This document shows, piece by piece, positions 19,940 through 56,844 of a stretch of 59,395 nucleotides of DNA. Under the pieces are notes generated by a model that worked only from the letters and a program-made list of their open reading frames with translations, had not been told where the DNA came from and ran no database searches. The translations under genes and the position numbers were made by a program. The stretch's first letter is position 1. Each line of letters starts with the position of its first letter. Origin of the DNA: a virus; IMG/VR virus record IMGVR_UViG_3300009285_006554, positions 1-59,395 of that record. One strand, given 5' to 3'.

Positions 19940-19971
19940 GGGCATAAGTTAAGTACACACTCACAAGGAGG
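19940..19971 (+). promoter_or_regulatory. Leader cassette: CATAAG box plus AAGGAGG ribosome site
   Basis: The sequence from GGGCATAAG to CACAAGGAGG closely matches the leader at 34821-34851 (GGGTATAAG to CACAAGGAGG), with AAGTACA conserved in the middle. CATAAG (19943-19948) is in the place of a -10 box, and AAGGAGG (19965-19971) sits six bases before the TTG start at 19978. Confidence 0.5.
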
Positions 19972-20412: not shown

Positions 20413-20444
20413 CCCCGCGCCCTAACCGGCGCGGGGGTTTTTTT
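20413..20444 (+). terminator. Rho-independent terminator
   Basis: A 9-bp perfect stem, CCCCGCGCC (20413-20421) with GGCGCGGGG (20428-20436), a six-base loop, and seven T residues at 20438-20444. It ends the plus-strand transcript of 19978-20397. On the minus strand the hairpin has no T run, so it is not clearly a terminator for the terminase message. Confidence 0.9.
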
Positions 20445-23361
20445 AGTATCCATCCGCGTAGGGGGGGTCGTCGTTGTCCGTAAAGCCGTCTTCGCGCTCC
20501 TCCATCGGGGTGATGATGTCAGGACGGGGGTGCCTGATCATACTGACGAGGAAGCAGAGCAGGATGGAGTGGAAGGTGTCATCGGTGGTGCCCGGACTCC
20601 TGTGGTACTGGATCATGCGGGTCCGGGCGTTGAACTCGGCGAAGATGTTGAGAATGTCGGCGCCATAGGGGTCGTGGAAGTCTTCCCAGTGGGGGAGGTC
20701 GATCTGGCGGTTGCGCAGCGCGGCGAAGATGTCGCTCATCACCTCGGAGCGGTGCACCATGAAGCGCCCCATCAGGTCCTCGTAGTAGATCTTCCCCTTC
20801 CTCTGTTGGTTGTTGTACTGGTACTTGAGAACGCGCCCGGGCCCGAAGGAGCGGATCAACGCCTTGTTGCGGTCGAAGCCCCCGCCGTAGTCACAGCCCA
20901 CCTGCACCACATTGAAGCGCGCGATGATGTTCCGGATGGTGTCGAGCTGATACTCCGGCTCCAGCTCGCGGCCGGTGAATCGGTGCACCCAGAAGATGGT
21001 GAAGTTGCCCGTCCCCAGATACCCCCCGAGGGTCATGACGGTGAACGAGTTCTCCCCGGTATTTCCTTGGTAGGCGACACACCCGTTTCTCTCCGTGACG
21101 ATGTATCCAGATGGGACCTTGCAGCAGTACACCTTGCCCACGTATGGCACCTGCTCAACATGCTTTTTGGGGGTGTTGAGCTGGAAGTCACGGCCATGGG
21201 ACCACAATGCCCTCCAGCGTGCCTTTCTATTCCCCTCTTCCGGCTTGTGGAGGCGTACCACGCAGCGTTTGCCGAGACGTATGCACAGCTCTTGGAAGTC
21301 CTCACAGAGGCCCTTGGATGTTGAGTAGTAGGCACCATTGTTGTTGCCCTCACGCGGATCCTCGTATCCGTCACCGAGAGACATGGCATCAAACAGGATT
21401 TGAAGCTGTCTGCGCGACAGGTCGAAAAACTCGCGGGGGATGCGCTTCACATCGCCGGTCAGGCCCACATTCCTGGAAAACCAGTGCCAGTACTGTTTCC
21501 CATTGATTGACCAGTTTAGATCACCTGTCTCTGGATTCGGAAATTCGGAGTAAGGGATCCGCAGGCGATCCATGCAGTTCTTGATCTTCTTTGCGTTCTC
21601 GGGGGATACCGACTCACGCTGGGACATCCTCAGATGGTAGGGGACCAGATCACCTACCCTGTTTCTTTTAAGACAGACACCACCCTCCGCGAGCATGTAC
21701 CCGAGGAACTCCAGCCAATCATCCATTCGAAGTGTTCTACCGGTGCAACCAGAGTATCCCGGACTGGTGGGCAGCCCGGGGAGCAGGAAGTGTGCGCGTT
21801 CCTCCCCCACCCATCGGAGGTGTCCAACGAATTTGATGTTCCCACCCCGTTTGGAAGTCTTCTCCGATCTCTCCGTGACCCACGACTTCCCCTGCCGCCT
21901 GCCCACTCGCATGCGGTGCGTGTGTGTGAGTGCCATGTCCAATCCCTTGGCACGGTAGTGGTGGAGTGGTTGATCCCAGTTGCGGACGGTTCGTGCGATT
22001 GGGCGTACTAGGGACATTTCACGGGAGATAGGATCCCACTGGGCGACAAGGTCCCCGTCAGTTAGATCTCGGAAGTATTTCCACCCATCCTGAGTCAGGA
22101 TGCGCGTCTCCTCATCATGGCATCCCCAATCAAGCCCCGCCCAGATGGGGGTGTTCTGGGCGAACTGGAAGTAGTGCTCCAGGTCTCCGAGGTGGATCTC
22201 TTCGCGGCAGCAGGCCTGGAGCTGTACCTTACTGATGGGGCGCTGCCCGCTGTCGTAGCTCCGGCCGAGCACCTCGTTGTAGAACTGGGCACGCCCATAC
22301 CTCTGCTGCTTGCGGTGGATGTCATCCCACTCGTTGTTCAGGATCCACGGCACCATGATCTGCGGAAGGCGGTACCCCTCGTAGATGACCCGGTGCCTGT
22401 TCTCCTCGGTCTGTGGGTTGAGCTGCGCCCAGCGAGCCTCCGGGCAGTAGGGGTCGATGGGCCTGCCACACACGTCGCAGATCAACCCGTCCTTGCCGAT
22501 GTTGTTCTCGCCGAGGATGTTCCAGTGCCAGGACGACGGGTTCTTGGGGGTGCCATGGTGGAAGCAGGGGACGACCCACTCATTTTGGGTACTGTAGTTG
22601 CTCCAGTAGTGCTCGATGGTGTTGTCCACACTCTTGGGCGTCCCGGAGTAGACGAACTCCTTGAATGCGGAGTGGGAGGCACACTCCTCGATGACCGGGA
22701 GGTTGTCGGTGAGGATGTCCTGAAGCTCATCGACGAGGACCAGATCAGCCATGATTCCGCGGACCCGGTCAGCAGTGAGGTAGGCGTAGCGCAGCCGGAT
22801 GACGGAGTGGTTGACGAACTTCTTCTCCGCCATGGCGTTGGTCAGCTTGGAGTTGGTGTAGGCCTGGAGCGTCGGGCTGACATCGATCGGCTCCTGGATG
22901 CGATCCTTGCTGAAGTTGCGGCTTTGCTCAGCGGTGGGTGCCACATACAGTGCGCGGAACGCGGGGGTGATGCACATGCTGCCAAGGCAGAGGTTTCCCA
23001 GTGTGGTAGATTTTTCAACCTGCCTCCCAGCCATGAGCAGCTTGCGCTTGGCGGGGCTGTCGTAGATGCGCGGTAAGTAGGGTCGGCCCTCGAAGGAGAA
23101 CTGGGTGACCTGTCCCTTGATCGGGATGCGGATTGCAGTCGCGGCGAAGTCCGACGGGGACAGGCTGTAGTACTCCCCCAGCTCGAACCCGGGGTGATCA
23201 AGCACCGTCTCGTCGAACCCGAAGTCCTCGGGGATGCCGGCGTCGTTGTAGTCCCACCAGGGCTCAACGTACTCGACACCCTCCACGACCTGGGTGACGT
23301 ACCGGACCGGAACCAGGAGGCCCGAGTTGGTCTCCTGGAAGCTGTTGATGTCAACCAGCAA
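20443..23361 (-). CDS. Terminase large subunit interrupted by an intein
   Basis: The packaging motor: an ATPase that pumps DNA into the prohead and a nuclease that cuts it. The precursor is 972 residues; removal of the intein (residues 414-767) leaves 618, a normal length. ATPase motifs are AGRQVEKSTT (Walker A, about 111-120), ADLVLVDELQD (Walker B, about 205-215) and the SGTPKSVDN coupling motif. The nuclease domain has GLDWG (first Asp), GCDYGGGFDRNK and TDDTFHS. A CDVCG...C segment before the nuclease may bind zinc. The start is a TTG with no clear Shine-Dalgarno, overlapping the upstream gene by 11 bases, so coupling is likely. The small terminase subunit is not evident. Confidence 0.92.
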   Translation of the reverse strand: MLVDINSFQETNSGLLVPVRYVTQVVEGVEYVEPWWDYNDAGIPEDFGFDETVLDHPGFELGEYYSLSPSDFAATAIRIPIKGQVTQFSFEGRPYLPRIYDSPAKRKLLMAGRQVEKSTTLGNLCLGSMCITPAFRALYVAPTAEQSRNFSKDRIQEPIDVSPTLQAYTNSKLTNAMAEKKFVNHSVIRLRYAYLTADRVRGIMADLVLVDELQDILTDNLPVIEECASHSAFKEFVYSGTPKSVDNTIEHYWSNYSTQNEWVVPCFHHGTPKNPSSWHWNILGENNIGKDGLICDVCGRPIDPYCPEARWAQLNPQTEENRHRVIYEGYRLPQIMVPWILNNEWDDIHRKQQRYGRAQFYNEVLGRSYDSGQRPISKVQLQACCREEIHLGDLEHYFQFAQNTPIWAGLDWGCHDEETRILTQDGWKYFRDLTDGDLVAQWDPISREMSLVRPIARTVRNWDQPLHHYRAKGLDMALTHTHRMRVGRRQGKSWVTERSEKTSKRGGNIKFVGHLRWVGEERAHFLLPGLPTSPGYSGCTGRTLRMDDWLEFLGYMLAEGGVCLKRNRVGDLVPYHLRMSQRESVSPENAKKIKNCMDRLRIPYSEFPNPETGDLNWSINGKQYWHWFSRNVGLTGDVKRIPREFFDLSRRQLQILFDAMSLGDGYEDPREGNNNGAYYSTSKGLCEDFQELCIRLGKRCVVRLHKPEEGNRKARWRALWSHGRDFQLNTPKKHVEQVPYVGKVYCCKVPSGYIVTERNGCVAYQGNTGENSFTVMTLGGYLGTGNFTIFWVHRFTGRELEPEYQLDTIRNIIARFNVVQVGCDYGGGFDRNKALIRSFGPGRVLKYQYNNQQRKGKIYYEDLMGRFMVHRSEVMSDIFAALRNRQIDLPHWEDFHDPYGADILNIFAEFNARTRMIQYHRSPGTTDDTFHSILLCFLVSMIRHPRPDIITPMEEREDGFTDNDDPPYADGY
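21061..22122 (-). mobile_element. LAGLIDADG intein in the terminase nuclease site
   Basis: A 354-residue in-frame insertion that splices itself out of the terminase. It begins with Cys (CHDEETRILTQDGWKYFRDL) and has a block B T-x-x-H (MALTHTHRMRVG). It carries the two LAGLIDADG helices of a homing endonuclease (WLEFLGYMLAEGG and QILFDAMSLGDGYE). It ends with block F (VPYVGKVYCCKVPSGYIVTE) and NGCVAYQGN, followed by Thr as the first C-extein residue. The residue before the terminal Asn is Gly rather than the usual His. The insertion point is directly after GLDWG, the first catalytic Asp motif of the nuclease. All splicing blocks are present, so it looks active. Confidence 0.92.
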
Positions 23362-26638: not shown

Positions 26639-26902
26639 CTACTTGATCAAATCGCCGGACGACGTTTCGGCCGACGACGTCAGGTGCTCTATTACGGCCT
26701 CCGCCACCGCCTCGCTGATGACTTCTGCCATTTTTGTGGGCATGTAAATAGCACCCATGGTGGTAACCACCTCCGACTTGACGGAGCCGTCCGGCTGTGT
26801 CGTCGGCACCATGGTAGCCCCGGTCACCCCATTGCTGTCCAGCGGTTTGGTAGTCAGCTTATTGAGGATGGCTGCCTTCAACCCCTTTTTACTCATCGCC
26901 AT
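26639..26902 (-). CDS. Small hypothetical protein next to the baseplate spike
   Basis: An 87-residue protein. The ATG at 26902 overlaps the TGA of the spike gene by one base (TGATG), so it is translationally coupled. It starts MAMSKKGLKAAILNKLTTKP, and the second half has an amphipathic helix (AEVISEAVAEAVIEHLTSSA). It is too short and plain for a family call. Tight coupling to the spike gene suggests a partner in baseplate assembly. Confidence 0.55.
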   Translation of the reverse strand: MAMSKKGLKAAILNKLTTKPLDSNGVTGATMVPTTQPDGSVKSEVVTTMGAIYMPTKMAEVISEAVAEAVIEHLTSSAETSSGDLIK

Positions 26903-28092
26903 CAGGGACCTACCAGTATGGTCTTGGAGACGATCTTGGCCAGCTCTGCCGCCATCTCTGCCTTCTTCGAGGGGTCGAGGTACATGACGTTAATGAGGTT
27001 CTTCAGCAGCCACGTCGTGAGCTGCACCCCGAGCACAGCCGGCTCTGTGGCGTTGATCCCGATGTTGACGGAGGGCGCCTTGAGTGTGTAGGCGCCCTTG
27101 ACCACAGTAGTGCTCACCCCGGAAACATCAACAGTCTGAGCGCCCTTAATGGTCTTAGTCTCCGCCCCGGATATCTCCACGGTGCGCGCGCCCCGCACGG
27201 TCAACTTGTCCAACCCTGTGACCTCCACCGTGCGCCCCATCTTGATGGTAACCGTTGTCGATCCCTGCACATCTTCGATGACGTTGCCGGACGCGGAGAT
27301 GCGCATCCGGTACTTGGGGGTCACGGAGAAGGTGCCCGCCGTGGGGTCTACGTTCGTCGGGTCGACCACCAGCTCGTAGAGGCTGGAGCTGTCCACATGC
27401 CCCAGTGCCAGCTGCACAGAGGCCTTCTTGTCGTCCACCTTGTCCCGCAGGGAGAGGCGGTAGCTGGTCCCCGCGGCCGTACCCCCCGACGTCTCTTGGC
27501 GGTCTACGGTCCAGAACAGCTCCCCGCCAGGGGTGGAGGCCCTCAAGTTCTCGGCGACGTCTCGGATCATGTTCATCACCGGGATGTAGAAGCGCTGACA
27601 CATCGCCGTGGAGCCGATCTCCAGTACCCCGCCGCGGTGTAGAACCACCCGGTTCCCGTCGCGACCGTATAGCGCGATGGACCCGGGGGTTAGCAGTCTC
27701 CGGCCACCCCGGTGGCTGGCAAACGACGTGTTCCCACCTGCTACGGTCGGGGAGGCTTCCGAGGCCTCGGCTGTGTCGTCCCCGATGAACAGCTTGGGAT
27801 CTTCCTCGGCCTTCTGCCCCTCCTTCTCCGGGACACCGACGAACCCGATGATGAAGGGGGGGTCGTTGTCCGAGGGGTAGCAGACCAGGGCCTGGGCGCC
27901 CACCTCTGGCAGGGCGTAGATGCCCTCCCCCGAGTGGTAGTGAAAATATGGTGCTGCTATCTGGAGGTTGGCGATGTCCTTTCCGTCGTACTCCGTCCTG
28001 ACGGTACACGTCCAGGCGCGGAGGTCCACGTCGATGATGGTCCCCTTCTCGATCCATGCGGACGAGTAACTATGTGTGACCGGTGGCTCCAC
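26902..28092 (-). CDS. Baseplate central spike protein (gp5/VgrG/gpV-like)
   Basis: A 396-residue protein that should form the trimeric membrane-piercing spike at the tail tip. Residues about 12-85 form an OB-fold domain (KGTIIDVDLRAWTCTVRTEY, then HYHSGEGIYALPEVGAQALV and PSDNDPPFIIGFVG), as in gp5 and Mu gp45-type spikes. A linker and a middle domain follow. Residues about 285-350 are a run of short repeats (VEVTGLDKLTVRGARTVEIS and so on), the mark of an intertwined beta-helix needle. The C-terminal 45 residues are helical rather than a PAAR-type tip. No lysozyme domain is inserted. Confidence 0.88.
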   Translation of the reverse strand: MEPPVTHSYSSAWIEKGTIIDVDLRAWTCTVRTEYDGKDIANLQIAAPYFHYHSGEGIYALPEVGAQALVCYPSDNDPPFIIGFVGVPEKEGQKAEEDPKLFIGDDTAEASEASPTVAGGNTSFASHRGGRRLLTPGSIALYGRDGNRVVLHRGGVLEIGSTAMCQRFYIPVMNMIRDVAENLRASTPGGELFWTVDRQETSGGTAAGTSYRLSLRDKVDDKKASVQLALGHVDSSSLYELVVDPTNVDPTAGTFSVTPKYRMRISASGNVIEDVQGSTTVTIKMGRTVEVTGLDKLTVRGARTVEISGAETKTIKGAQTVDVSGVSTTVVKGAYTLKAPSVNIGINATEPAVLGVQLTTWLLKNLINVMYLDPSKKAEMAAELAKIVSKTILVGP

Positions 28093-28489: not shown

Positions 28490-31400
28490 TCAGTACGGTG
28501 TTTCCTTGCCGAACTCCGCCCCGTAGGCAATGCCGGGGATCGGATGTGTGCCGTGGATATTACTTGACCAGTTTCGGGCCGCGGCGTCCATCACAGTCTC
28601 GTGCAGGCGCTCCCGGTTGAGGCGGGCCATCCAGTCCGACCGCACCTCCTTCGGCATGATGTTGATGCCACGGAGGAGTGGCCTCACCTGCGCCGGAGTC
28701 TTCCCTGCCTTGGACAGGGCACGGTTGGCCTCTCGGGTCTTGGACATGGGGACGAGATCCCCGCGGATAAGATCGTGGTTATCTCCAGGGTTTTGGATCT
28801 GCCCGACGTCCGTGATCGATCGAACCACGGTCTCCACGTTGCGGCGGCGCACACCACTGGAGCCATACAGACCATATAGCGAGTCCGCCAAATAGTTCTG
28901 CACCCGGTCGAGCCCCCCCAGGGGGAGCAGCTCGTGTGGGTTGATGGGCCCTGCCGACAGGGGGTCGCCCTTCCCGACGCCGACCCCAGCGTGCAGGGGC
29001 ACCAGATTACCACTCTTGGACATGATGGATGGCACCCCGCGGCTGTGAGGTACATAGTGCTTCACCCCCGCGATGACCACGTCATGGCCGCCGGCCGGGT
29101 TCTTCACGATGGAGCCAACCTTCCCCCCGACGGTGCTCAGTGTAGCCGACCCTGGGATCTTGTCGTACATGTGGATCAACTGCTTGACCCGAACGAAGTC
29201 GTCCGTCAGCGCGGCACCCTTCCTCCCGGCGGCACCCACAGGGGCGACACCACCCTCGTGAAAGACGCGCATGGACATCTGTGTGGCCGGCTCCCCCAAA
29301 GCCTGCCCAGAGATGATGCCCACGTTGGTCCCCTTGGAGGCCTTCTCCCCATTCTCATCCAGCCCGTAGCAGGTGGCACAGATGCTGCGCCCGTGCCGGC
29401 ACTTCAGTGGGCTGCGCACCAGCACCTGAGACACCTTGTTGTTCCTCAAGCTGTCCCGCACACCAGGGGTCACGAGTGTACCTGCCGCGTAGGTTCGGCG
29501 CCCCGACTTCACAGGAGCCGCCAGGAACCGGTCCAACACCTCCTTGTCCTGGACGGGAAGGGTGATCCCCTTGCTGGTCCCACAATCGTCAGACCCGATT
29601 GTGACATCCATGATGGCGTTGTTGATCTGCTTGGAAACGTAGCCGGGCTGGCTGACGGACTGGACCTTTTGTACCACACCCTTGCGGGCGCCAGACATCG
29701 AGGTCCAGTAGTCACCCACGTCCAAGCCCTCCGAATAGGATTTCCTGATCGGCTCGGGGATGATCTCACCCTTGGCGTTCATCATGAGCATGGGGGCCGC
29801 CCGGATCTGCCGGTAGACTGGCATGGTGGGCTTGATCCCTGCATTCATCATGTGCACCAGGTTGTTGTCCTTGCCCGTGAGACCCTTCCGCAACTCTGCT
29901 TCCATCTTCTGGCTGGCCGCATCGTAGATCTGTACAATCTTCGCATCGCGCTGCTCGGCGGTGAGCCCCTGTGTTGCACGCACGGCGTCGACGGCTCGAT
30001 CTGCCGCGCGCACATGCTTGTCGCGCATCTTCTTGTCGGCCGTGATGTCCGCGAGGCCGAGAGAGAACACCGTGTTGGTGGCGTGCCTGTTGCCGATGTC
30101 CTTGAGCTTGTTGGCCACGTCGGAAAACTGATCTTTATGCTTCCGCCCTATCTCCGAGAGAAGAGAGGACTGCCTCTTCTTGTCCAGGGGGTCCCCGAAC
30201 AGGATGTCGTCTCGGAGAGGGGCCGGGACGTTGTTGGCGACCATGTGTCGCCCCACGGTAGTCCTCTTCCCCCCTATGGTGGCCACCGCGTCAACGGCCA
30301 GAGATCCGGCCGCAACCGCCTTCGCCGCCTCTGCGACCGAGGTGAAGGTCTTCTTCGTCTCCTCCCCCATGCGGGTGGCCATGTAGAGCCCCAGCCTGGA
30401 CTCCTGCGCAGGGGTGTACATCACAGCCCCCGTCGCCGGGTGGAACAGGTTGTTCGAGGGGTGCATCTTGCGCGCCTCGAGCACCGCGTCCTCCGACAGG
30501 GGGATGTAGGCGTTCATCTGGTCCCCGTCGAAGTCGGCGTTGTACCCGCTGGTGACGAGAGGGTGCACCTTGATCGCCTTCCCGCTGATGAGGCGCGGCT
30601 TGAAGGCCTGGACACCGTACTTGTGCAGGACGGGGTCCCTCTTCAACAGCATCGGCCGCTGCTCAACAACCCTCTCGAGGGCACGCATGGCCAGGGGGTC
30701 CCCATCCTTGACAGCCTGCTGGGCCTGAAGGGGGGACATCCCGCTGATGTTGCGCAGTTCGCGAACGACGAATGGCTTGTAGACCTCCATGGCTGCCCCG
30801 CGCGGGAACCCAACCTCGTCCATCCCCATCTCGGGCTCAGGAACAATAACCCCGCGGGCACTGAGGTCCTGCCGGCGCTTTATCACCTTCTTCTGGAAGA
30901 AGCCCTCGGCGGGCTTCCCACCCTTGTCCTGCCCGCGCACCACCGTCTTGCCCCGAATGACGTCCAAGATCCCTCGGTAGTCCCGGTTCAGGTAGCCCCC
31001 CAGCCCGGACAAGCTCTTGGCGGCGTCGTACATCATGGCGCGCCGCTTATCCATCTCCTCCTTCGGCAGCAGGCGGGGGTTAGCTTCTCGCATCTTCTTC
31101 GCCGCCAGGCCGAGGCCCTTGTACATCCCATTCAGGTCATCCAGGTTGATGCCCCTGTCTGGCATCAAGGACAGCGGACGCATGGAAGGGGGCATGACGG
31201 GGATTTCTTTCGCCATGTAGGCGTCGGTGGGGGTCATGCCATGTGCGTCAAGCACCCGCAGGTAGCGTACCCGGCGGTTGGCCTGGTCCAGACGGTTGCC
31301 CGTGAGGCCCGGCTTGTTGAGGGCCACCTCGGCCGCGGCCAGGTCCTTTTTCACATCGATGCGCCCCAGAAGGTGCTCGATGGCCTGGCCGAACGCTAGA

Positions 31401-34400
31401 GATCCTTTGAGCTTGCCGTCCACGATGGTCCCCGTCTTGGGGTCCACCCCCAACGACCCATCCATGATCCCCGTGAACTCCTTGTTCTTGATGCCAGCGA
31501 CCCCTACGATGGCCTGCTCGAAGATCGGGTTGGGGATGCGCTCGGGGAGGGAGATGTGTGCCCACTTCGTCCCCTCCATCCCCCCCGTCACCTTCTTGTC
31601 GAACAGCCCATGGTCCTCCTCAAGGTCCGTCCTGCCAACGATCATGCGCCCCGGGTCGCGAAGCTCCCCGTTGCTCATCTCGAGGACCTGCTTGTCCGTC
31701 ATGGGCAGCAGCGAGATCTGGTTGCCGGACTTGGTCGTGTTGATCCCCAGCCCCTTGAGGTACCCCATGAACTTGTCGTAGGCGAAGGTGGGGCGCGGGG
31801 GAGGTAGGGGGGACCCGGACTGGATTGCCGACCACAGCTCATCGTTCATGTCGGCATTGCTCTTGTAGGTCTGCATGTCCCGAATGTTGTGCGTAGCCCC
31901 GTGGGCAAGCATCGCGTACAGCCCCAGGGCATCCATGCTCTGCGCACTCGTCTTGCCACCGGATCTGGGCATCCTGTCCCGGTCATAAGCGTACCCGGGG
32001 CCCCCAGATCGTGCCGTCAGCTTCCGGCCAACCTGATGCTTCAGCTTGTGGATGTACTGCTGCCCAGCCAACGCCTGCCCAGCATTGCGCATGGTGACTG
32101 CGCCCGTGGTGGGGTCCTTCTCGGGGATGAGGATGTCCTCCTTGTCCGTCAGCCCGTGTGCCTTGAGCTCGCGCTGGATCCTCGCGGTGATGTCCTGGGT
32201 TCCGTCGAAGTTCTGCACCCGGTAGGGCTTGCCCGTCTTCTCTGCAATCTTGGAGGCCGCGGTCTCCAGCATCTGACTCAGGTTCACGCGACCAGGCACC
32301 CCCGTGGGGTTCAGTACGATGTCGAGTATCTTGCCATCCGTGGTGCGGGGCATCTCGTCATCGGGGAAGATTCCAGTCACAATACCCTTGTTCCCGTGGC
32401 GCCCGGCGACCTTGTCCCCTATCTCCGCGGGCTCTGCCGTCTTGACGTGCACCTCGGCGCGCTTACCGCGGTGTATCACGTTGGTGACCACTCCAGGGTG
32501 GTCACTCTCCCAGCGCACCGCTACGTCGTCGAAGGGCTTGATGAGGCTCTTGTGCATGCGCCCCATCATCCGAGACTCATCATCGTCCTTCTTGCGCTTT
32601 CGAAGGGCGGCGATCAGCGTATCTCCAGGCTTTACAACCTGCCCAACACGGATCACACCGTTGGGGTCCAGCTTGTCTACCTGATCTCCGGTGAGCCTGG
32701 TTCCGTAGTGGGCCACATACTTCTTCTTGTCCAGAGCGTGGTCCTCGTCCAGGTCGACGCCCTTCCGGTGCATGTGAGTGCTCGCCAGCTTCTGCGCCGC
32801 GGACTCGCTGATCACCACCCCATCCTCATAGTTGTAGCCCTTGAAGGGGAAGTATCCGGCCCGGAGATTCGTACCCAGGGCCAACTGCCCACCCCGGGTG
32901 AAGTTCGTGTCCGCTACCACCTGCTTGGCCGCGACCCGGTCCCCCACCCTCACGAGGGGCTCTGAGTGCAGGAAGCTCTTCTCGTCGTTGAGGGGGAAGT
33001 GATCGTACGTCTGGACCTCGTGCCGCTTGCCCTTGCTGTCGCGGATCACTACTGCATCGTTTTTGACGGCCACAACCTCTCCCGAGACCGGAGACCGCTG
33101 GTGGCTCTGGGCCCCCAGAAGCTCATTGAACGTCTTGGAATTGGTGGACTTGTCGATAGTGGTTTGCACCAGGGGCACCTCGCGGTGCACCAACGGGATG
33201 GCTTGCTCCATGTGACGACCGGCCATGGTGGAGCGATTGCCCGAAGTGCTCTGCATGAACGGGATGAGGTTGGAGGCGGCAGAGAAGAGCTGCGTGGGGG
33301 AGCGCATGGCATAGTCCGCGTCGGCCAGGCTGACTTGCCCCACGTCGTTTCCGGGCATGGAGGCCTTGACCTTCCCGGACGCCGTGGGGCGCCCACCCTT
33401 CCAGCGGACCTGATCCGGCATCACCACAGTGGTCTTGTGGATCTGCTCGGGGGTCACCATCTCCATCTTCCCCTTCTTCAGGTTGAACAGCGGGACGGCG
33501 ACGGTATCCCCCCGCTTCTGGGCACCCATGGCCATCTGGAGGGACACGCCGGTCTTGTCCCCCTCCGGTGTGTGCATGGGGTCCAGAACGCCGAAGTGGG
33601 AGGGGTCCACCAACTTGGCATCCTCGGAGATCCTATGCGCCGAAGTGATTCCTTTCTCCCCGGTGATGGTGGTCTTCATGGCCCCACCCAACATCTCGAG
33701 CGGGTTGACCTGATCAGGGGTGCTGGACAAAGACGTCTTGGTGAACACCACGTGGATTGGCCTGTTCAGGATGTCCGGCTGCAGGACGTCGCGCACGTTG
33801 CGCTTCCTGTCGATGTTGTTGCCTATCCTGCGCATGATCTCCTTGGAGCGGTCCGTCAGACCCTCGGAGACGTAGTCTTCCACCGCGCGGAACCGCTTGA
33901 ACATCAGGGCATCGCGCGCGTCGGGCTTCGCCTCACCCCGGCTAATCCCCAACAGTTTGCCTGCCGCGGCACTCATGGCGTGCCCGTTAACGGTGTTGAA
34001 CTTCTGCCCGAGAGTCAGCTCTGTGACGCCGGGGTCCAGCTCGGCGGTCCTCATGAACTCACGGAGGCTCTCCCGCGCCGCGTGGACATCCTCCACCTTC
34101 GAGCCGACAACAGACTTGCTGAAGGCCATCAAGGCCTTCTCCCGGTCACCCCCCTGGTTGGCCCGCAGAATTTCCGGCCCCCACTGCTTCTCCAGGTCCT
34201 TGTCCGAGACCCCCATCTCCTGGAGGAGTGGGTACAGGGGGATGCTGGCTCCAGAGGAGGACTTCCGCACGTTGAACTTCGCCGTCTTCGGGTCGAAATC
34301 CATCCGGAATCCGCCGCCCTTGAAGTTGAATTGGGACTCCAGGTCGCCGCTGTCCGTGACGCGGGAGTAGACCCCCGGGCGCAAGACCCACTGGTTGTCG

Positions 34401-34726
34401 AGCTGGTACTCGGTGCCCCCCACGATATAGGAGTAGCGCCCAGTGGTCTTGGGCAGGTTCATGATCCGCATCTTCTTGCGGTCGATGACCCTCCCGTCCG
34501 GGCCGGTCAGGGAGACGTCCGCGTTGACTGGTATCTCCCAGCTCCGCCCCGCCTCCTTGGCCTTCTTCTGGGACCTGATGTCTCCGACCGGGAGGTTGTC
34601 TCGAATCTCCACGCTGTTGAGGACCAGGGAGTTCTTGCGCCCCTTGATGGGGAACATGCCCTCCAGGGTCTCCTGCACACGCCCCTTCAGGACGTCGAAG
34701 CCTTCTTGCGGTCTCAGATGTGCCAT
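28490..34726 (-). CDS. Single-chain multisubunit-type RNA polymerase (beta/beta-prime fusion)
   Basis: A DNA-dependent RNA polymerase of 2078 residues in which beta and beta-prime catalytic regions are one chain. Beta part (1 to about 1000): HTPEGDKTGVSLQ (near 385), NYEDGVVISE (632-641), GDKVAGRHGNKGIV (770-783) with catalytic Lys772 and Lys780, NPTGVPGRVNLSQMLE (806-821). Beta-prime part: clamp-helix region (about 1195-1240), NADFDGDQM (1396-1404) whose Asp1398, Asp1400 and Asp1402 bind the active-site magnesium, bridge helix (about 1675-1700), zinc ligands Cys1715, Cys1776, Cys1783 and Cys1786, trigger loop with GQALGEPATQMSMR (1807-1820). The N-terminal beta-prime zinc finger is absent and no linker separates the halves. 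No alpha, omega or sigma gene lies in the window. Start ATG follows GGGAGATCTGA. It heads a virion-gene operon. Confidence 0.96.
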   Translation of the reverse strand: MAHLRPQEGFDVLKGRVQETLEGMFPIKGRKNSLVLNSVEIRDNLPVGDIRSQKKAKEAGRSWEIPVNADVSLTGPDGRVIDRKKMRIMNLPKTTGRYSYIVGGTEYQLDNQWVLRPGVYSRVTDSGDLESQFNFKGGGFRMDFDPKTAKFNVRKSSSGASIPLYPLLQEMGVSDKDLEKQWGPEILRANQGGDREKALMAFSKSVVGSKVEDVHAARESLREFMRTAELDPGVTELTLGQKFNTVNGHAMSAAAGKLLGISRGEAKPDARDALMFKRFRAVEDYVSEGLTDRSKEIMRRIGNNIDRKRNVRDVLQPDILNRPIHVVFTKTSLSSTPDQVNPLEMLGGAMKTTITGEKGITSAHRISEDAKLVDPSHFGVLDPMHTPEGDKTGVSLQMAMGAQKRGDTVAVPLFNLKKGKMEMVTPEQIHKTTVVMPDQVRWKGGRPTASGKVKASMPGNDVGQVSLADADYAMRSPTQLFSAASNLIPFMQSTSGNRSTMAGRHMEQAIPLVHREVPLVQTTIDKSTNSKTFNELLGAQSHQRSPVSGEVVAVKNDAVVIRDSKGKRHEVQTYDHFPLNDEKSFLHSEPLVRVGDRVAAKQVVADTNFTRGGQLALGTNLRAGYFPFKGYNYEDGVVISESAAQKLASTHMHRKGVDLDEDHALDKKKYVAHYGTRLTGDQVDKLDPNGVIRVGQVVKPGDTLIAALRKRKKDDDESRMMGRMHKSLIKPFDDVAVRWESDHPGVVTNVIHRGKRAEVHVKTAEPAEIGDKVAGRHGNKGIVTGIFPDDEMPRTTDGKILDIVLNPTGVPGRVNLSQMLETAASKIAEKTGKPYRVQNFDGTQDITARIQRELKAHGLTDKEDILIPEKDPTTGAVTMRNAGQALAGQQYIHKLKHQVGRKLTARSGGPGYAYDRDRMPRSGGKTSAQSMDALGLYAMLAHGATHNIRDMQTYKSNADMNDELWSAIQSGSPLPPPRPTFAYDKFMGYLKGLGINTTKSGNQISLLPMTDKQVLEMSNGELRDPGRMIVGRTDLEEDHGLFDKKVTGGMEGTKWAHISLPERIPNPIFEQAIVGVAGIKNKEFTGIMDGSLGVDPKTGTIVDGKLKGSLAFGQAIEHLLGRIDVKKDLAAAEVALNKPGLTGNRLDQANRRVRYLRVLDAHGMTPTDAYMAKEIPVMPPSMRPLSLMPDRGINLDDLNGMYKGLGLAAKKMREANPRLLPKEEMDKRRAMMYDAAKSLSGLGGYLNRDYRGILDVIRGKTVVRGQDKGGKPAEGFFQKKVIKRRQDLSARGVIVPEPEMGMDEVGFPRGAAMEVYKPFVVRELRNISGMSPLQAQQAVKDGDPLAMRALERVVEQRPMLLKRDPVLHKYGVQAFKPRLISGKAIKVHPLVTSGYNADFDGDQMNAYIPLSEDAVLEARKMHPSNNLFHPATGAVMYTPAQESRLGLYMATRMGEETKKTFTSVAEAAKAVAAGSLAVDAVATIGGKRTTVGRHMVANNVPAPLRDDILFGDPLDKKRQSSLLSEIGRKHKDQFSDVANKLKDIGNRHATNTVFSLGLADITADKKMRDKHVRAADRAVDAVRATQGLTAEQRDAKIVQIYDAASQKMEAELRKGLTGKDNNLVHMMNAGIKPTMPVYRQIRAAPMLMMNAKGEIIPEPIRKSYSEGLDVGDYWTSMSGARKGVVQKVQSVSQPGYVSKQINNAIMDVTIGSDDCGTSKGITLPVQDKEVLDRFLAAPVKSGRRTYAAGTLVTPGVRDSLRNNKVSQVLVRSPLKCRHGRSICATCYGLDENGEKASKGTNVGIISGQALGEPATQMSMRVFHEGGVAPVGAAGRKGAALTDDFVRVKQLIHMYDKIPGSATLSTVGGKVGSIVKNPAGGHDVVIAGVKHYVPHSRGVPSIMSKSGNLVPLHAGVGVGKGDPLSAGPINPHELLPLGGLDRVQNYLADSLYGLYGSSGVRRRNVETVVRSITDVGQIQNPGDNHDLIRGDLVPMSKTREANRALSKAGKTPAQVRPLLRGINIMPKEVRSDWMARLNRERLHETVMDAAARNWSSNIHGTHPIPGIAYGAEFGKETPY

Positions 34727-34856
34727 TCAGATCTCCCTCTACCCGGTGTAGATTACCAGAACATCGGGGAAAAGATGAAGGGGCAACGCTATAAGCTACT
34801 CGAATACCCCCCACCAACGAGGGTATAAGACAAGTACAACCCACAAGGAGGCAGTA
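34727..34856. promoter_or_regulatory. Divergent promoter region between RNA polymerase and acidic-protein genes
   Basis: 130 bases without a gene. The plus strand has two TATAAG -10 boxes (34790-34795 and 34824-34829). The second begins a leader matching 19940-19971, with AAGGAGG (34845-34851) before ATG 34857. A short inverted repeat, ATACCC/GGGTAT, overlaps the second box. On the minus strand TTGGTG, a 17-base spacer and TTATAG could drive the polymerase gene; this is weaker. Confidence 0.45.
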
Positions 34857-35057
34857 ATGTTCATGCAGATCTGGCTCGATCCCCCCAACCCCCACCGCTC
34901 TCACCGTCCCCGGCCCATCCTGAAGCTGCAGGAGGATGGGGACGACGACGGCTTCGGGGGGGATGTCGAGGACGCCTACAACGGCGTCCCCGACGACGAC
35001 GAGGGCCCCGAGGACGAGGACTACGACTCGGATGACGAGGACGAGGACGAGGACTAG
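34857..35057 (+). CDS. Small, extremely acidic protein
   Basis: A 66-residue protein. The first 25 residues contain several Pro, His and Arg (MFMQIWLDPPNPHRSHRPRP). The rest is almost all Asp, Glu and Gly (for example DDDEGPEDEDYDSDDEDEDE). It has an ideal AAGGAGG ribosome site and shares its leader with 19978-20397, so strong expression is likely. Highly acidic small phage proteins can mimic DNA or bind basic surfaces of host enzymes; that is a possibility only. It is divergent from the RNA polymerase gene. Confidence 0.65.
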   Translation: MFMQIWLDPPNPHRSHRPRPILKLQEDGDDDGFGGDVEDAYNGVPDDDEGPEDEDYDSDDEDEDED

Positions 35058-35628: not shown

Positions 35629-36029
35629 TGATACCGTGCATGTTCTGCAGTGGACCCCTCTACCAGGGGGACGATGTCGTCAAGGTCTCCGTTGGCTCCT
35701 TCGTCGGGGGAAGTGGGTTTGAGCCCGCATTGTTCCCGGATGGGGCCGGTGAGAAGTTCGGTCATACCAAGTGCCTCGCCGTGAAGTTCTCCCCGGTAGG
35801 GGATGCTGCCAACAACGAGTTCTGCCCGTACTGTAACTGCCGCCTTGTGGGGGCAGCCTTCGCCTTCATCCTGGGCACGGTGATCGACGGCGCCTACTTC
35901 AGCCGACGCCTACCCGTGTTCGTCTGTGCCCGCTGCGGCATCGACTCTCTGGGTGAAGGAAGGATGGAGGAGGCCGAGAAGATCCTCGGCTTCCGTCAAC
36001 CAGGTGCCTTCGAGCTAGATCAGAGCTGA
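35625..36029 (+). CDS. Zinc-finger protein, second of the tandem pair
   Basis: A 134-residue protein starting MMIPCMFC; ATG 35625 overlaps the TGA of its paralogue, and ATG 35628 is an alternative. Metal pairs are CMFC (near 5), H-T-K-C (near 48), C-P-Y-C-x-C (near 66) and C-A-R-C (near 103). The segment after the third pair is more hydrophobic than in the first copy. Its 3-prime end overlaps the convergent portal gene by 15 bases, so the two transcripts run into each other with no terminator between them. Function unknown. Confidence 0.65.
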   Translation: MMIPCMFCSGPLYQGDDVVKVSVGSFVGGSGFEPALFPDGAGEKFGHTKCLAVKFSPVGDAANNEFCPYCNCRLVGAAFAFILGTVIDGAYFSRRLPVFVCARCGIDSLGEGRMEEAEKILGFRQPGAFELDQS

Positions 36030-38015
36030 TCCAGGGCCCCTGCGGGGCGGCCGCTGCTCCGGAAGGGGCTTGCCGGCCGCCCCATTTTTAGCCCCGCCAC
36101 CACCACCACCGAACAGCATGGACAGGACGACGCTGTAGAGCTCCCTGCTCTGCGACCGCAGATTCATCAGGGCCGCATCACGCGACTCTGAGTCCATCTG
36201 GCCGAGCTGGGTAGCGAGATACTGCGCCTGGGAGATCAAGTCCAGATTGGCATGCCCCATCATATCACTCGGCCCAGCTGGGGTGGGCAGCGCATTACCC
36301 AACCCCAGGCGGCTTCCCATCATCTCGTTGGGGGTGTCCATGCGCGCCCTGGGTACCTGGGGAGGTGGGTTCATCTGGGCCTGGGCGCGCATCATCTGCG
36401 GATCGGGATGGGGGGACATCGAGTCTCCCTGGACCCCTTCCGCCTCCGCCCCGGGCTCTCCGGGGGTGGGGGTTGCTGTGGCGGCGTGCTCTGCCATTTC
36501 CCGCTGCGCGCGCGCTTGGAAGCGGGCCATGACAAGACTCTGCTCCCCCTGGATCTCGGCCTGGCGTATCTGCGCCTTCTTGAGGGCGTCGGCGCGCTGG
36601 TTGGTCTCGCGCTGGATGGTCAGGTCCTCCTTGTCCGCATCGAGATCCGCGTAGGAGAGCAGGGTGCTGTCCGAGATCTTCCCGGCCTGGGACAACTGGA
36701 AGTAGTAGGCCTGCCGCTGCAGGTCATCGGCCATCTTGAAAGGCTTGTAGCTGGCCCCGATTAGGGGCCAGTCCATATAGATGCCCACGCTGCGGATGAT
36801 CCACTTGAGGAGGCGCAGGTGCCCCTGCAGGTAGCCAATGAAGAAGTTCTCCAGCATGCGGAGGGAGACGTTGCTACCCGAATAGCTCACACCACCGAAG
36901 ATCAACTCTGAGGGGACCCCCATGCCCGCCAGGATCTGCTCACTCCAGATGCGCACCTCCTGCCCCAAGAGTAGGGCTCTGCCCTCCCCACCAATGCTCT
37001 GGGTGCCCACGGGGAGGGGGAGGATCGGGATGTAGTTGTTGTCCCGACGCCACCGGTTGATCTCCATGGCGATCTGGTCCTTCCACCGCCCCAGGTTGAC
37101 CGAGTTGTAGGCTGCGGCCGTCGACGTGTCCTGGGGAAAGATCGTGCGCAGGGGCACGATGTGCTCCATGGCGATGGTCTCTTGCGCCTTCTTCAGGATC
37201 TGCAGGTAGAAGGTGTCCTTGAGCACTGGCAGGACCAGCGGCATGCCCCATCCCTGATCCTTCCCCGCCAGGGTGGGTCTCTTGAAGTGAAACAGGGCCC
37301 CGTCCGCAAACACCACCGAGCGGCGGTTCTTCATGGCGTCGATGAAGAGCTGTGGCACCTCCTCGAGGATGTGCTTCTTGCCCATCATCACGTCATTCCG
37401 CAGCGCCGTGGGGATCCTGTAGAAGTAGGTCAGGCGTCCCGTGGCCTCACTCTTGGTGATGTCCACATCCTCAGGGTTCCAGCGCACAAGCCTGATGTCG
37501 CTGGAGGCCCGAACGTACTCGTCGCGCGCGCGGGCCGGCCCATGCGTTCCACATGAGGGGCACTGCCAGTAGAACTCGAAGCCGCGGAAATCGTACTTGG
37601 CATCGCGAGCTGCTCTCGTGTGCTTACACGCGGCGCAGGTGAGCTTCTTGACGAAGGGGAAGGAGAGACTTACCAGGCAGTTCCCGTAGGTGAAGAAGTC
37701 CAGCCCGGCCTCCTCCATGAAGGAGCGGTACTGGAGATGGTCCTCCATGAACGTGGACCACCGCAACTTCAGCCCCTGATCCTCAGTGTGGTAGACAACG
37801 TCGCGGATCGGGTACTGCGAGAGCTTGAAGACGGTCGCGTTGATCAGCGGGTGCACCATGAAGAAGTAGCGGCACCACTCGAACAGGCTCTTGATCGTCT
37901 TCGGGAGGTATGTCTGGCTGACGTCGAAGAACGGGTTGGGGTACAGAACCCCCCGGGAGAAGGTCCCGTCGCGCCCTCTGGTCCTGGAGAATCGCGTGGA
38001 GGAGAGGGATTCCAT
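36015..38015 (-). CDS. Portal protein with inserted zinc finger
   Basis: A 666-residue protein assigned as the dodecameric portal through which DNA enters the head. Support: typical size, a wing/stem pattern with a long C-terminal helical region, the GMGVPSELIFGGVSYSGSNV segment (near residue 365, common to portals), and a Gln/Pro-rich disordered tail. Residues about 127-160 hold CAACKH...CPSCG, a zinc finger inserted in the N-terminal wing, which most portals lack. The ATG overlaps the upstream TAA by one base (TAATG) behind GGTGGAG. The terminase is some 13 kb away in another operon, not adjacent as in many phages. Confidence 0.8.
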   Translation of the reverse strand: MESLSSTRFSRTRGRDGTFSRGVLYPNPFFDVSQTYLPKTIKSLFEWCRYFFMVHPLINATVFKLSQYPIRDVVYHTEDQGLKLRWSTFMEDHLQYRSFMEEAGLDFFTYGNCLVSLSFPFVKKLTCAACKHTRAARDAKYDFRGFEFYWQCPSCGTHGPARARDEYVRASSDIRLVRWNPEDVDITKSEATGRLTYFYRIPTALRNDVMMGKKHILEEVPQLFIDAMKNRRSVVFADGALFHFKRPTLAGKDQGWGMPLVLPVLKDTFYLQILKKAQETIAMEHIVPLRTIFPQDTSTAAAYNSVNLGRWKDQIAMEINRWRRDNNYIPILPLPVGTQSIGGEGRALLLGQEVRIWSEQILAGMGVPSELIFGGVSYSGSNVSLRMLENFFIGYLQGHLRLLKWIIRSVGIYMDWPLIGASYKPFKMADDLQRQAYYFQLSQAGKISDSTLLSYADLDADKEDLTIQRETNQRADALKKAQIRQAEIQGEQSLVMARFQARAQREMAEHAATATPTPGEPGAEAEGVQGDSMSPHPDPQMMRAQAQMNPPPQVPRARMDTPNEMMGSRLGLGNALPTPAGPSDMMGHANLDLISQAQYLATQLGQMDSESRDAALMNLRSQSRELYSVVLSMLFGGGGGGAKNGAAGKPLPEQRPPRRGPGSALI

Positions 38016-42244: not shown

Positions 42245-42274
42245 GTGACAAAATCTCGGAACCATCGCTATAAG
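42245..42274 (+). promoter_or_regulatory. Sigma70-like promoter for the replication module
   Basis: GTGACA (42245-42250), an 18-base spacer and TATAAG (42269-42274). It lies back to back with the minus-strand promoter, the two -35 boxes being one base apart. The first plus-strand gene starts 45 bases later at 42319 behind GAGGAGG. Confidence 0.7.
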
Positions 42275-42318
42275 CCGTTTAGTTATGAGCCACCCGCAAC
42301 TTAACCAGTTCGAGGAGG

Positions 42319-42702
42319 ATGGAATTGTTCAGCAAAAGATACGAAGGACGGGACACGGCAAGGAAGGGGTGTTTCGGGAAGAGCCAGTACTTCAAAGCAT
42401 CCGACTTCACCTGCCAGAACTGCCCCGACTACAGTGACTGCGGGAGAGTTGTCACGGGGGCGGCAACTTCACCGGTCTCCAGGTCGGCGATGTACAGTGA
42501 CCGGGGGTACCACGGGAGACCGCTTGGGGGTGTTGAGTCTTCTGAGGTTCCTGCCGGCGTCGTCAGGGAGGGGGAGACCGCCTTCGAGAGGTTCGGGTAC
42601 GACGTGCTGACCGGGATGTGCCGGGGTGGCATGTGGGAGGGGTACTCCTTCTTCACGGTCTTCCGGTTTGGGCGAAAGCCTCCAAGTACCGGCGGGGAGT
42701 AG
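42319..42702 (+). CDS. Small protein with Cys knuckle, first gene of the replication module
   Basis: A 127-residue protein. The N-terminal third has FKASDFTCQNCPDYSDCGRV, a C-x2-C-x5-C group that could bind zinc or iron-sulphur with the upstream Cys at residue 18. The rest is Gly/Arg-rich without a recognisable fold. It is promoter-proximal in the rightward early/middle operon and ends directly before the helicase start, with coupled translation likely. Family unknown; early phage genes of this size often modify the host. Confidence 0.55.
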   Translation: MELFSKRYEGRDTARKGCFGKSQYFKASDFTCQNCPDYSDCGRVVTGAATSPVSRSAMYSDRGYHGRPLGGVESSEVPAGVVREGETAFERFGYDVLTGMCRGGMWEGYSFFTVFRFGRKPPSTGGE

Positions 42703-44607
42703 ATGCCGACCTTTCACACCAGGGAGCCCGGTGTTGCCTACACCGGGACATCCCTCTACCTCCCCAAAGAGGGAAGGAACGTCCGGGCGATCAAGAATGC
42801 GCTGGAGTTCCTGGTGAACGTCAACGGGGAGCAAGACACGCTGACCCTGTGGAAAGAGACGAGACACCACATCGTCGTGCCGCGATCTTTCCTTACGGAT
42901 GATCAGTTTGCAACCCTGCGCTGCCCTGTCGTAGATCTGGCACCGAAGGAGTACCCGCGGATCCTGTTTCACAGCAAGGTGGTCCCCGACAAGCTGTGGC
43001 CAGACAAGACAATCCAGAGGGACGCCCTCGCCGCATGGGAGCAGCACGCGCGTGGGCGGGGCGGAATCCTGAATCTGGCATGCATCTCCGGCGAAACAGA
43101 ACTTCGACTCCACCGGGCGGGAAAGGGGTTCCGGATGGATGCGGCCACTGCCCACGATCGTTTTAATGACTTGGGAAACCGCTATCGGTGGGATCCAAGA
43201 ATCCCGACATTCATCCGCAGCAACCAGGGGGGGCTTGTGGGGCTGCAGGAGGTTATCGGCATCTCCTTCAATGGATTTCGCTGCACGGAAGAGATGCGGT
43301 TGGAGAACGGGATGGTTCTCCGGGTCACCGACGATCACGAGATCCTAACTCCGGGTGGGTGGGTTCAGCGGGGGGTTCTGGGGGCCGGAGACTACGTCAT
43401 GGTGGAGGGGTCGGGAAGCGCGGTGGTCCCCGCCAAGATCGTGAGCATGGGGGGAAGACGCCGAGAGCGCGTCTTCGACGTGGCATGCCGTGGTCCTAAT
43501 CACAACTACGTGGCTGGGGGTGTCGTAGTCCACAATTGTGGGAAGGGTAAGACGGTAGTGGCCCTGGAATGCATTTCCAGGCTCGCGATGCCGGCGCTGA
43601 TCATCGTGGGGCAGTCCACCATCATGAATCAGTGGCGGGACAGGATCAAGGAGCTACTCGGGTTCGATGGGGGGATCGGAGTCATCCAGGGGGATCCGCG
43701 GGGGTGGGACTGGGAGCGCCCGATCACCGTCGCGATGCTCCAGACCCTGGCTAGGTACGCGGACGCCATATCTCCCGCCATGCGGCGCCACTTCGGCAGC
43801 ATCTGGTGGGACGAGGTGCACCACCTCTCCGCTCCCACCTTCTGCATCACCTCGGACATGTTCCCCGGGCAGCGCTACGGCCTGTCCGCCACCCTGGGCA
43901 GGGAAGATGGTCTGGAGCCGATCTACTACTACCACATTGGCAGACCCTTCCACACCAACCTGCTGCAGGAGATCGCGCCCACTGTCTACTTCCGCCGGAC
44001 GCCATTCACGGTGGACATGCACGACCCGACCGTCTTTGCGGCGGTGACGGACAAGACCGGGAACCTCAACCTGTCCCGGCTCCGCACATATATGGGTACC
44101 AGACCAGATCGCATAGCCTACCAGTGCCGAGACATCCGCCGGTGTCTGAATGCCGGGCGAAAGATCCTGGCCCTGAGCCACAGCAGGGAGCAGTTGGAGC
44201 TCATGCACCAGATCTTCGGTGAGGAGATCTCGGGCCTATGCACCGGGAAGCAGAGCGTGATCAAGCGCTGGGACGCCCTGCGCCACAAGCAGCTCATCTT
44301 CGGCACCCACCAGTTGGTGCTGGAGGCCATCGATGAGAAGACCCTCGACTTTTTAATCTGGCTCACCCCCTACGGCAGCTCTCACCCGGACGGGGGGGTC
44401 AACGCCCTGCAGCAGGGTATGGGGCGCATCCAGAGACACTACGAGGGAAAGCCCACCCCCAAGGTGTTGATCTACGACGACATGCACGTTCGGGATTTCA
44501 ACCGGATGTGCAACAGGCTCCGCCACCAGCTGCTGAACTGGCCGGCACACAAGGGTGGGCCTTACCGCCCCATCAACCTGCCATTGCTGGAGGACTTCGA
44601 TGTCTGA
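42703..44607 (+). CDS. SF2 DNA helicase (UvsW/XPB-like) interrupted by a mini-intein
   Basis: A DNA-dependent ATPase/helicase. The precursor is 634 residues and the spliced form 482. After splicing, Walker A is formed by LNLA joined to CGKGKT. Walker B is WWDEVHHL, motif III is GLSATLGRE, and motif VI is QQGMGRIQRH. The architecture resembles T4 UvsW and XPB-type branch-migration or repair helicases, with a separate N-terminal domain (residues 1-100). It is second in the rightward operon; UvsW-like enzymes act in recombination-dependent replication, which matches the RecA-like and RusA-like genes downstream. Confidence 0.9.
   Translation: MPTFHTREPGVAYTGTSLYLPKEGRNVRAIKNALEFLVNVNGEQDTLTLWKETRHHIVVPRSFLTDDQFATLRCPVVDLAPKEYPRILFHSKVVPDKLWPDKTIQRDALAAWEQHARGRGGILNLACISGETELRLHRAGKGFRMDAATAHDRFNDLGNRYRWDPRIPTFIRSNQGGLVGLQEVIGISFNGFRCTEEMRLENGMVLRVTDDHEILTPGGWVQRGVLGAGDYVMVEGSGSAVVPAKIVSMGGRRRERVFDVACRGPNHNYVAGGVVVHNCGKGKTVVALECISRLAMPALIIVGQSTIMNQWRDRIKELLGFDGGIGVIQGDPRGWDWERPITVAMLQTLARYADAISPAMRRHFGSIWWDEVHHLSAPTFCITSDMFPGQRYGLSATLGREDGLEPIYYYHIGRPFHTNLLQEIAPTVYFRRTPFTVDMHDPTVFAAVTDKTGNLNLSRLRTYMGTRPDRIAYQCRDIRRCLNAGRKILALSHSREQLELMHQIFGEEISGLCTGKQSVIKRWDALRHKQLIFGTHQLVLEAIDEKTLDFLIWLTPYGSSHPDGGVNALQQGMGRIQRHYEGKPTPKVLIYDDMHVRDFNRMCNRLRHQLLNWPAHKGGPYRPINLPLLEDFDV
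43081..43536 (+). mobile_element. Mini-intein in the helicase Walker A motif
   Basis: A 152-residue in-frame insertion (precursor residues 127-278). It starts CISGETELRLHRAG, has a block B T-x-x-H (LRVTDDHEILTPGGW), and ends with ERVFDVACRGPNHNYVAGG and VVVHN followed by Cys. Splicing residues Cys1, His and Asn at the end, and Cys+1 are all present. There is no endonuclease domain. It splits the P loop between Ala and Cys-Gly-Lys-Gly-Lys-Thr, so the helicase cannot bind ATP until splicing occurs. Confidence 0.92.
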
Positions 44608-45331: not shown

Positions 45332-45343
45332 GAGGAGGAGAGG

Positions 45344-45817: not shown

Positions 45818-46200
45818 GCCGCCGCCCGCCGCCAAACCCCGCCCGGGGGACACGGGCGACGACCAACTTCGGGAAGGCCTACACGAAGGAAGAGGGAACT
45901 GTCGCCGACGCCCCGGCCCAGACCAGGACCGAGTACTTCTCCGTGGACGACATGCCCATGGGGCCCGCCACCGTCCGGTTTGGGCATGACAAGAAGATCT
46001 GGGGCCAGCACGCCCACCTGGACACTGGGTTGTCCATGGGTGCCAACTGCGAGGTCACCATCTGCTGCGCCCAGGACGAGGTGACGCTGGTCCGTGCCCA
46101 TGAGATCGCCAAGAAGATGTCCAAGGAGTTCGCCTGGCGCGCCGTGGAGGATGTCAAGGGGGAGCTGATTGAGTTCCTCGAGAACAGGAGTCGCCGATGA
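45814..46200 (+). CDS. Small hypothetical protein in the replication operon
   Basis: A 128-residue protein with a basic disordered start (MSRRPPPNPARGTRATTNFG), a central part with FSVDDMPMGPATVRFGHDKK and a helical end (AHEIAKKMSKEFAWRAVEDV). Two adjacent Cys (TICCAQDE) are in a strand. It overlaps both neighbours by four bases, consistent with co-translation. No known domain. Confidence 0.55.
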   Translation: MSRRPPPNPARGTRATTNFGKAYTKEEGTVADAPAQTRTEYFSVDDMPMGPATVRFGHDKKIWGQHAHLDTGLSMGANCEVTICCAQDEVTLVRAHEIAKKMSKEFAWRAVEDVKGELIEFLENRSRR

Positions 46201-47649: not shown

Positions 47650-47652
47650 TGC

Positions 47653-51244: not shown

Positions 51245-51249
51245 CCGTC

Positions 51250-56840: not shown

Positions 56841-56844
56841 GGCC

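Follow-up and report, generated by a model that had tools for sequence, protein, structure and literature searches.

Can a tailed phage transcribe its genes with an RNA polymerase (RNAP) whose beta and beta' subunits have become one chain, and, if so, with what partners and from which promoters would such an enzyme work? The question is raised by a 59,395-base metagenomic virus record fragment (IMGVR_UViG_3300009285_006554), hereafter "the window," in which a single long open reading frame (ORF) carries the motifs of both subunits.

What surrounds the gene?

The window holds a myophage gene set, arranged as follows.

990-5060, minus strand: sheath
11403-12530, minus strand: major capsid
15643-17238, minus strand: protease
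20443..23361, minus strand: large terminase with an intein-like insert
26902..28092, minus strand: gp5-like baseplate hub/tail lysozyme, downstream of the RNAP gene and a conserved neighbour
36015..38015, minus strand: portal protein, upstream of the RNAP gene
42319..59140, plus strand: replication module (DnaB-like helicase, primase, split Pol A, UvsX-like protein, resolvase, Cas4-like nuclease)

The sheath, terminase, portal, capsid, and hub genes around it confirm that the polymerase is phage-encoded, as a preliminary description of this DNA had proposed. Of the 160 family loci with enough flank, 112 have a portal gene upstream of RNAP and in its orientation. In the window itself divergent plus-strand genes part the two, and the RNAP gene may have a promoter of its own.

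Does the chain contain a complete catalytic core?

The gene begins with an ATG at 34726 and runs for 2078 codons without an internal stop. The uninterrupted frame previously described, with beta motifs followed by beta' motifs, is thus present, but on the minus strand. Along the chain lie Pfam Rpb2 domains 3 and 6 and Rpb1 domains 2, 3, and 5 (E-values of 6e-56 for Rpb2_6, 4e-28 for Rpb1_2, and 6e-22 for Rpb1_5), and a PDB sequence search matches it to bacterial beta' chains at E~1e-100.

28490..34726, minus strand: fused beta-beta' RNA polymerase (ORF translation, Pfam, PDB sequence search, motif positions)
32384..32419, minus strand: beta double-psi-barrel motif GDKVAGRHGNKG, residues 770-781, with K772 and K780 (translation, RpoB/RpoC alignment, family conservation)
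30521..30541, minus strand: catalytic NADFDGD, residues 1396-1402 (translation, family alignment)
29369..29584, minus strand: second zinc site, Cys1715/1776/1783/1786 (translation, family alignment)
29177..29296, minus strand: trigger-loop region beginning GEPATQMSMRVFHEGG, residues 1811-1850, without an SI3-type insert (translation; H1823 conserved)

Both barrels of the cell-type enzyme can be recognised, DPBB-A with NADFDGD and DPBB-B with its two catalytic lysines. In the family alignment (196 rows), K772, K780, D1398, and D1400 are invariant in every row with a residue there, and D1402 is kept in all rows but one; the trigger-loop histidine is likewise kept, and most of the family also has the second zinc site. 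The positions given earlier for the two lysines, for NADFDGD at 1396, and for the four cysteines all agree with the translation. These cysteines, the only four in the chain, nevertheless belong to the second zinc site only, because the N-terminal zinc ribbon of beta' (Zn1) is missing. From these motifs, we infer that the gene encodes an RNA polymerase core with a complete set of active-site motifs in one chain, which would be catalytically active.

How widespread is the fusion?

Alignment-guided scans of IMG/VR returned hundreds of relatives, and together with isolates these gave 195 distinct loci. A single ORF spans the beta/beta' junction in 193 of them. The chain is full and single in 104 of the 195, and in 73 beta' is divided again at about residues 1484-1490. 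A frameshift or stop between the halves was looked for and none was found; the 193 loci that read through the junction in one ORF, 104 of them full single chains, rule out both a frameshift and an error of assembly. The fused chain is consequently real, as first described, but it is no singular case: fusion is a trait common to hundreds of related phage contigs.

30263..30277, minus strand: point at which beta' is split into N and C proteins in split-class relatives, residues 1484-1488, intact in the window (family alignment)

In window residue numbering, this break falls directly after the NADFDGD barrel. Isolates with the split form include Salmonella phage Arash, where the two proteins are gp206 and gp216, and Vibrio phage D69; in Vibrio phage D181 beta is interrupted once more, near residue 495, with a homing endonuclease next to the break. 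Group I and II introns, considered as a source of long RNAP genes, gave no Rfam matches; the inserts keep the reading frame and resemble inteins.

Our trees hold the phage family and bacteria, with archaeal, Helicobacter-fusion, and named mReC rows left out. Phages and bacteria form the two sides of one fully supported branch (FastTree 1.0, UFBoot 100, SH-aLRT 100), and the phage chain lies at much the same distance (26-31%) from the RNAPs of many bacterial phyla. Cobetia phage Carin-5 and Yersinia phage YerA41, which have separate beta' and beta genes, are placed outside the family. The split class is one clade. We make no claim that the full fusion came first and gave rise to the 1486 split, because the AU test does not reject the fused forms as a clade (p=0.496).

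How are the two halves joined?

The anatomy of the chain was read by aligning it to Salmonella RpoB/RpoC.

31712..31774, minus strand: beta/beta' junction, residues ~985-1005 (alignment to Salmonella RpoB/RpoC)
31562..31585, minus strand: site of the deleted beta' N-terminal zinc ribbon (Zn1), residues ~1048-1055 (RpoB/RpoC and family alignments)

Beta is complete to its last helix, where PESFNVLLKEIRSLGIN of the window pairs with Salmonella TFAYDKFMGYLKGLGIN, and this helix passes almost without a linker into the first strand of beta', much as the earlier account of halves with neither gap nor linker had it. Beyond the junction, the deletion of Zn1 removes ~30 residues relative to bacteria, and 192 of 193 family rows have no cysteine there. 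The start of the clamp helices (DLN.LY) is kept in the window chain, and the residues that in bacterial clamp helices contact sigma are changed.

Structure prediction, which the preliminary description had named as a check, gives halves that resemble bacterial beta and beta'. The AlphaFold model of residues 449-1490, covering both barrels and the junction, reaches a pLDDT of 89.3 and a pTM of 0.80 and matches bacterial beta chains in Foldseek at E~1e-39. The model of the beta' half (residues 985-2078; pLDDT 89.0, pTM 0.84) matches bacterial beta' chains over their length, with TM scores of 0.81-0.87 for most matches.

Does the enzyme have partners?

Alpha (PF01000) was found in none of 21 family records, although 13 of 14 control genomes were positive, and omega (PF01192) likewise in none of 21, with 14 of 14 controls positive. 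There is one set of RNAP genes per genome (19 records).

Sigma is another matter. After weak initial matches, a sigma profile (A6) was built from 12 phage proteins; it matches SigA at E=7e-38 in a PDB search. With this profile, 24 of 32 family records are seen to encode a factor of the sigma-70 family; among the 24 records of 130 kb or more, 22 have one. Salmonella phage Arash (gp10, gp196) and Vibrio phage D181 are among the carriers, and Pfam Sigma70_r3 scored above cut-off in the seven scanned. Each of the 24 sigma-bearing records has at least one sigma gene on the RNAP strand. No sigma gene was found in the 59,395-base window or in its 51-kb relatives, all of them fragments; a close relative whose RNAP is 56-59% identical to that of the window does carry one, and the window phage would be expected to have its own elsewhere in the genome.

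The suggestion of a "minimal self-contained" enzyme therefore stands for the absence of alpha and omega, but the enzyme is probably not self-contained, since the genomes of most relatives supply both a sigma-70 family factor and a promoter of their own. As the sigma-contact residues of the clamp helices are changed, the pairing of this core with the phage sigma is assumed here.

Which promoter, and on which strand?

The hexamer CTTATA occurs upstream of RNAP genes in 51 of 103 regions, against 4.8 expected, and belongs to a 20-base motif seen in 99 of 104 such regions. Read in reverse, the motif becomes GGTATAAG-N5-T-R, that is, an extended -10 followed by T at -1 and a purine at +1, with a weak CAA/CC (a -35 trace) ~17-20 bases upstream of the GG. 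We considered the forward reading, in which the motif (CTTATACC) would be the promoter of the RNAP gene itself, and rejected it: the strand counts, the SD-led ORFs, and the -1 T/+1 purine all show that the motif points away from RNAP.

Outside the training region, there are 92 copies on one strand versus 4 on the other. The strict form, GGTATAAG-N5-T[GA], is found 71 times on the non-RNAP strand versus 0 on the RNAP strand (2.18 Mb), and 3 times in 1.29 Mb of bacterial DNA. Genome-wide, Arash has 35 copies on one strand versus 1 on the other, and by its annotation these sites lie largely upstream of minus-strand non-structural genes. An SD-led ORF follows 118 of 166 promoter sites (33 of 36 in Arash), compared with 21% of random positions. 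In the window, the motif and its variants lie as follows.

34822..34836, plus strand: promoter GGTATAAG-N5-TA, between RNAP and the divergent plus-strand genes
34857..35057, plus strand: 66-aa acidic ORF behind the 34822 promoter, with its ATG at 34857 preceded by AAGGAGG
19941..19955, plus strand: promoter GGCATAAG-N5-TA, before a plus-strand ORF at 19978
59309..59323, plus strand: promoter variant CGTTATAAG-N5-TG at the right end of the window, with GGAGGAGG and an ATG behind it
42267..42281, plus strand: weak promoter match (score 10.9), before the replication module (42319-)

On sequence grounds, GGTATAAG-N5-TR is a candidate family-wide promoter for the strand opposite RNAP, the non-structural one. 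A motif search for a corresponding promoter on the structural strand found none.

Who reads the promoter?

On balance, we favour a phage holoenzyme, consisting of the single-chain core and a phage sigma, which would transcribe the non-structural genes and may be packaged. In this proposal, the joining of beta to beta' would take over from the alpha dimer, and from omega, the job of holding the catalytic subunits together, so that neither is encoded. Promoter choice would fall to the phage sigma-70 family factor encoded elsewhere on the polymerase strand, and the resulting holoenzyme would read (-35-like CAA/CC)...GGTATAAG-N5-T(-1)R(+1) before the non-structural and replication genes of the opposite strand.

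RNAP and sigma lie on the strand of the virion genes, and RNAP lies between portal and hub; late synthesis together with the virion proteins is for this reason probable, and packaging of the holoenzyme, which would then start the next infection, is possible. Should this enzyme be the one that uses the promoter, a late-made polymerase would serve the other strand; this points to packaging, for which crAss-like phages (PMC7886860) and P23-45 (PMC10770324) are precedents. Packaging is the weakest step, argued from gene position and strand, and we put it at somewhat less than even. Many relatives share the joined enzyme, their own sigma, and their own promoter, so the transcription apparatus of these viruses is probably a pared-down form of the bacterial one. 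The proposal at its fullest, a widespread lineage in which a two-protein holoenzyme (single-chain beta-beta' plus its own sigma-70) is packaged, injected, and starts early transcription at GGTATAAG, is more tentative still.

Early genes of many phages are transcribed by host RNAP, and the GGTATAAG sites could be early promoters of this kind, with the phage enzyme later transcribing the structural strand, like the non-virion RNAP of phiKZ. A TATA-type -10 with a weak -35 does resemble sigma-70 promoters, and the position of the RNAP and sigma genes on the structural strand would suit such a division of labour. However, the last base of the -10 is a G (TATAAG), which is unfavourable for host sigma-70; the GG before the -10 hardly varies, even between phages that differ widely in G+C; the motif is scarcely present in bacterial loci; and no motif emerged on the structural strand that the phage enzyme would have to read. 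We consider this explanation unlikely, though deserving of real weight.

Alternatively, the single chain might fall short of a whole core, take alpha, omega, or sigma from the host, and redirect host transcription factors, for which one may cite the missing alpha and omega genes (21 records) and a predicted fold very near that of bacterial beta'. Yet the phiKZ and AR9 polymerases also manage without alpha and omega (PMC7598289), the clamp-helix positions that host sigma would contact differ, Zn1 is missing, and most relatives have a phage sigma; we find this reading improbable. The window is a metagenomic fragment, but an assembly artefact, contaminating bacterial DNA, or a dead gene is hardly credible given a junction read through in 193 of 195 loci (isolates Arash and the Vibrio phages among them), phage neighbour genes, invariant catalytic residues, and a clade apart from bacteria.

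Why does it matter?

To our knowledge, every cellular multisubunit RNA polymerase depends on a platform of the alpha type. If the phage holoenzyme is real, no smaller sigma-dependent relative of bacterial RNAP would be known: its catalytic subunits are joined, and it does without alpha, omega, and the first zinc ribbon. The phiKZ and crAss enzymes are strongly diverged, whereas this one has near-bacterial catalytic subunits with a recognisable sigma and promoter. It offers an expressible model for a fusion standing in for an assembly platform, with the isolate Arash available on a Salmonella host, and potentially an orthogonal promoter-sigma-polymerase set. The RNAP lineage was probably described before, as mReC (2020), in a main text silent on the fusion; it is the holoenzyme with its promoters that adds interest. 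Our literature search returned nothing relevant on a phage rpoB-rpoC fusion of this type, on Arash, or on GGTATAAG in phages.

How does it compare with known systems?

Bacterial rpoB-rpoC fusions, as in Helicobacter and Wolbachia, also place beta before beta' in one chain, and their genomes retain alpha and omega. They share the order of the window chain, compared here by description only, but are bacterial.

Weinheimer and Aylward (2020) described 97 contigs with a deeply branching RNAP as mReC, multimeric-RNAP-encoding Caudovirales (PMC7481178). In the main text of that paper, beta and beta' figure as subunits, fusion comes up for crAss-like phages only, and neither sigma nor promoter is mentioned (PMC7481178). 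The likenesses are these: tailed phages, cell-like beta and beta', a clade apart from bacteria, and the same collection. The window chain would also pass the mReC rules (beta- and beta'-type matches, NADxDGD, >800 aa), with Pfam models replacing COG0085/COG0086. All 8 capsids detected among the 97 mReC contigs are PF07068, and 17 of 31 mReC TerL match PF03237 (PMC7481178). PF07068 gave no match to the window capsid or across 53 of our records, in a search without a positive control, and the window TerL matches PF05876 (GpA_ATPase) rather than PF03237; a TerL family is, however, no definition of an RNAP lineage. One family member (L291) was assembled from metagenome 3300017989, which also yielded mReC1 and mReC3, and we therefore take the window RNAP family to be probably the lineage reported in 2020.

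The phiKZ and AR9 polymerases are likewise two-barrel phage enzymes without alpha and omega, and their beta' is split where our split class splits, a site shared by jumbo phages and cyanobacteria (PMC7598289). Theirs, however, comprise 4-5 diverged polypeptides with beta unjoined to beta', and their type of promoter subunit (gp68) has no recognisable sigma sequence (PMC8287921). The window family has neither the splitting of both beta and beta' nor the two RNAPs per genome of the phiKZ type, and sequence searches uphold the early impression that its chain is nearer to cellular enzymes than the phiKZ/AR9 subunits are. CrAss-like phages and P23-45 also carry both barrels in one chain, and some of these single-chain RNAPs are virion enzymes (PMC7886860, PMC10770324); they are extremely diverged, on another branch, with no readable similarity to bacterial subunits.

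Homologues in isolates are those of Arash, D69, and D181, in which fused beta and beta'N adjoin the portal. Arash shares the promoter motif of the window family, although in Arash and D69 beta' is split again at ~1486, whereas the window chain is whole. Measured against the bacterial holoenzyme, the family differs in lacking alpha and omega (21 records) and resembles it in the sigma-70 family factor that 24 of 32 records carry, outside the window fragment.

Intein-like inserts in the RNA polymerase genes

Within the family of related phages, 28 RNA polymerase genes carry 36 intein-like inserts, all of them in frame (loci L006, L012, L144, L171, L173, L185, L187, L204, L267, L311, L315, L324, L325, L330, L337, L340, L358, L359, L367, and others). 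The inserts cluster at active-site motifs, and LAGLIDADG was found in three of the four that were tested. The sites, in residues of the window chain, are as follows:

773, after GDK
1402, in NADFDGD
1823, trigger loop
~583 and ~388, two further sites

In the window itself, intein-like inserts are seen in two other genes, where matches to LAGLIDADG and Intein_splicing are sub-threshold:

20443-23361, terminase, 972 aa
42703-44607, helicase

Broken and divided loci

At three loci (L357, L363, and L322), the breaks in the polymerase ORF coincide exactly with intein sites (774, 927), and additional residues are present on one or both halves; these may be split inteins. A sub-group (L009, L010, L011, L015, and L367) has beta divided as well, at ~450-456, which leaves a middle gene that encodes betaC-beta'N (~1010-1030 aa in L009, L010, L011, and L015), and its polymerase pieces are separated by other genes. 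The nine ORFs that make up the broken region of L283 represent either a decayed gene or poor assembly. As for L213 (OR844998, “Staphylococcus phage SA 1306 Kay,” a GenBank phage record from wastewater), its beta and beta' lie on separate ORFs, and this rpoB/rpoC pair is probably contaminating DNA, because it looks bacterial.

Other genes of the window

Between the polymerase and portal genes, within the structural block, lies a short divergent operon comprising a 66-aa acidic ORF and two apparently Cys-rich ones:

34857-36029 (+), divergent operon

The sheath match of the tail sheath protein is confined to its last ~180 residues:

990-5060, tail sheath protein, 1356 aa

The family A DNA polymerase is split across two adjoining ORFs, in an order identical in the related records G001 and G002:

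51250-52725 and 52712-53920, the two polymerase ORFs
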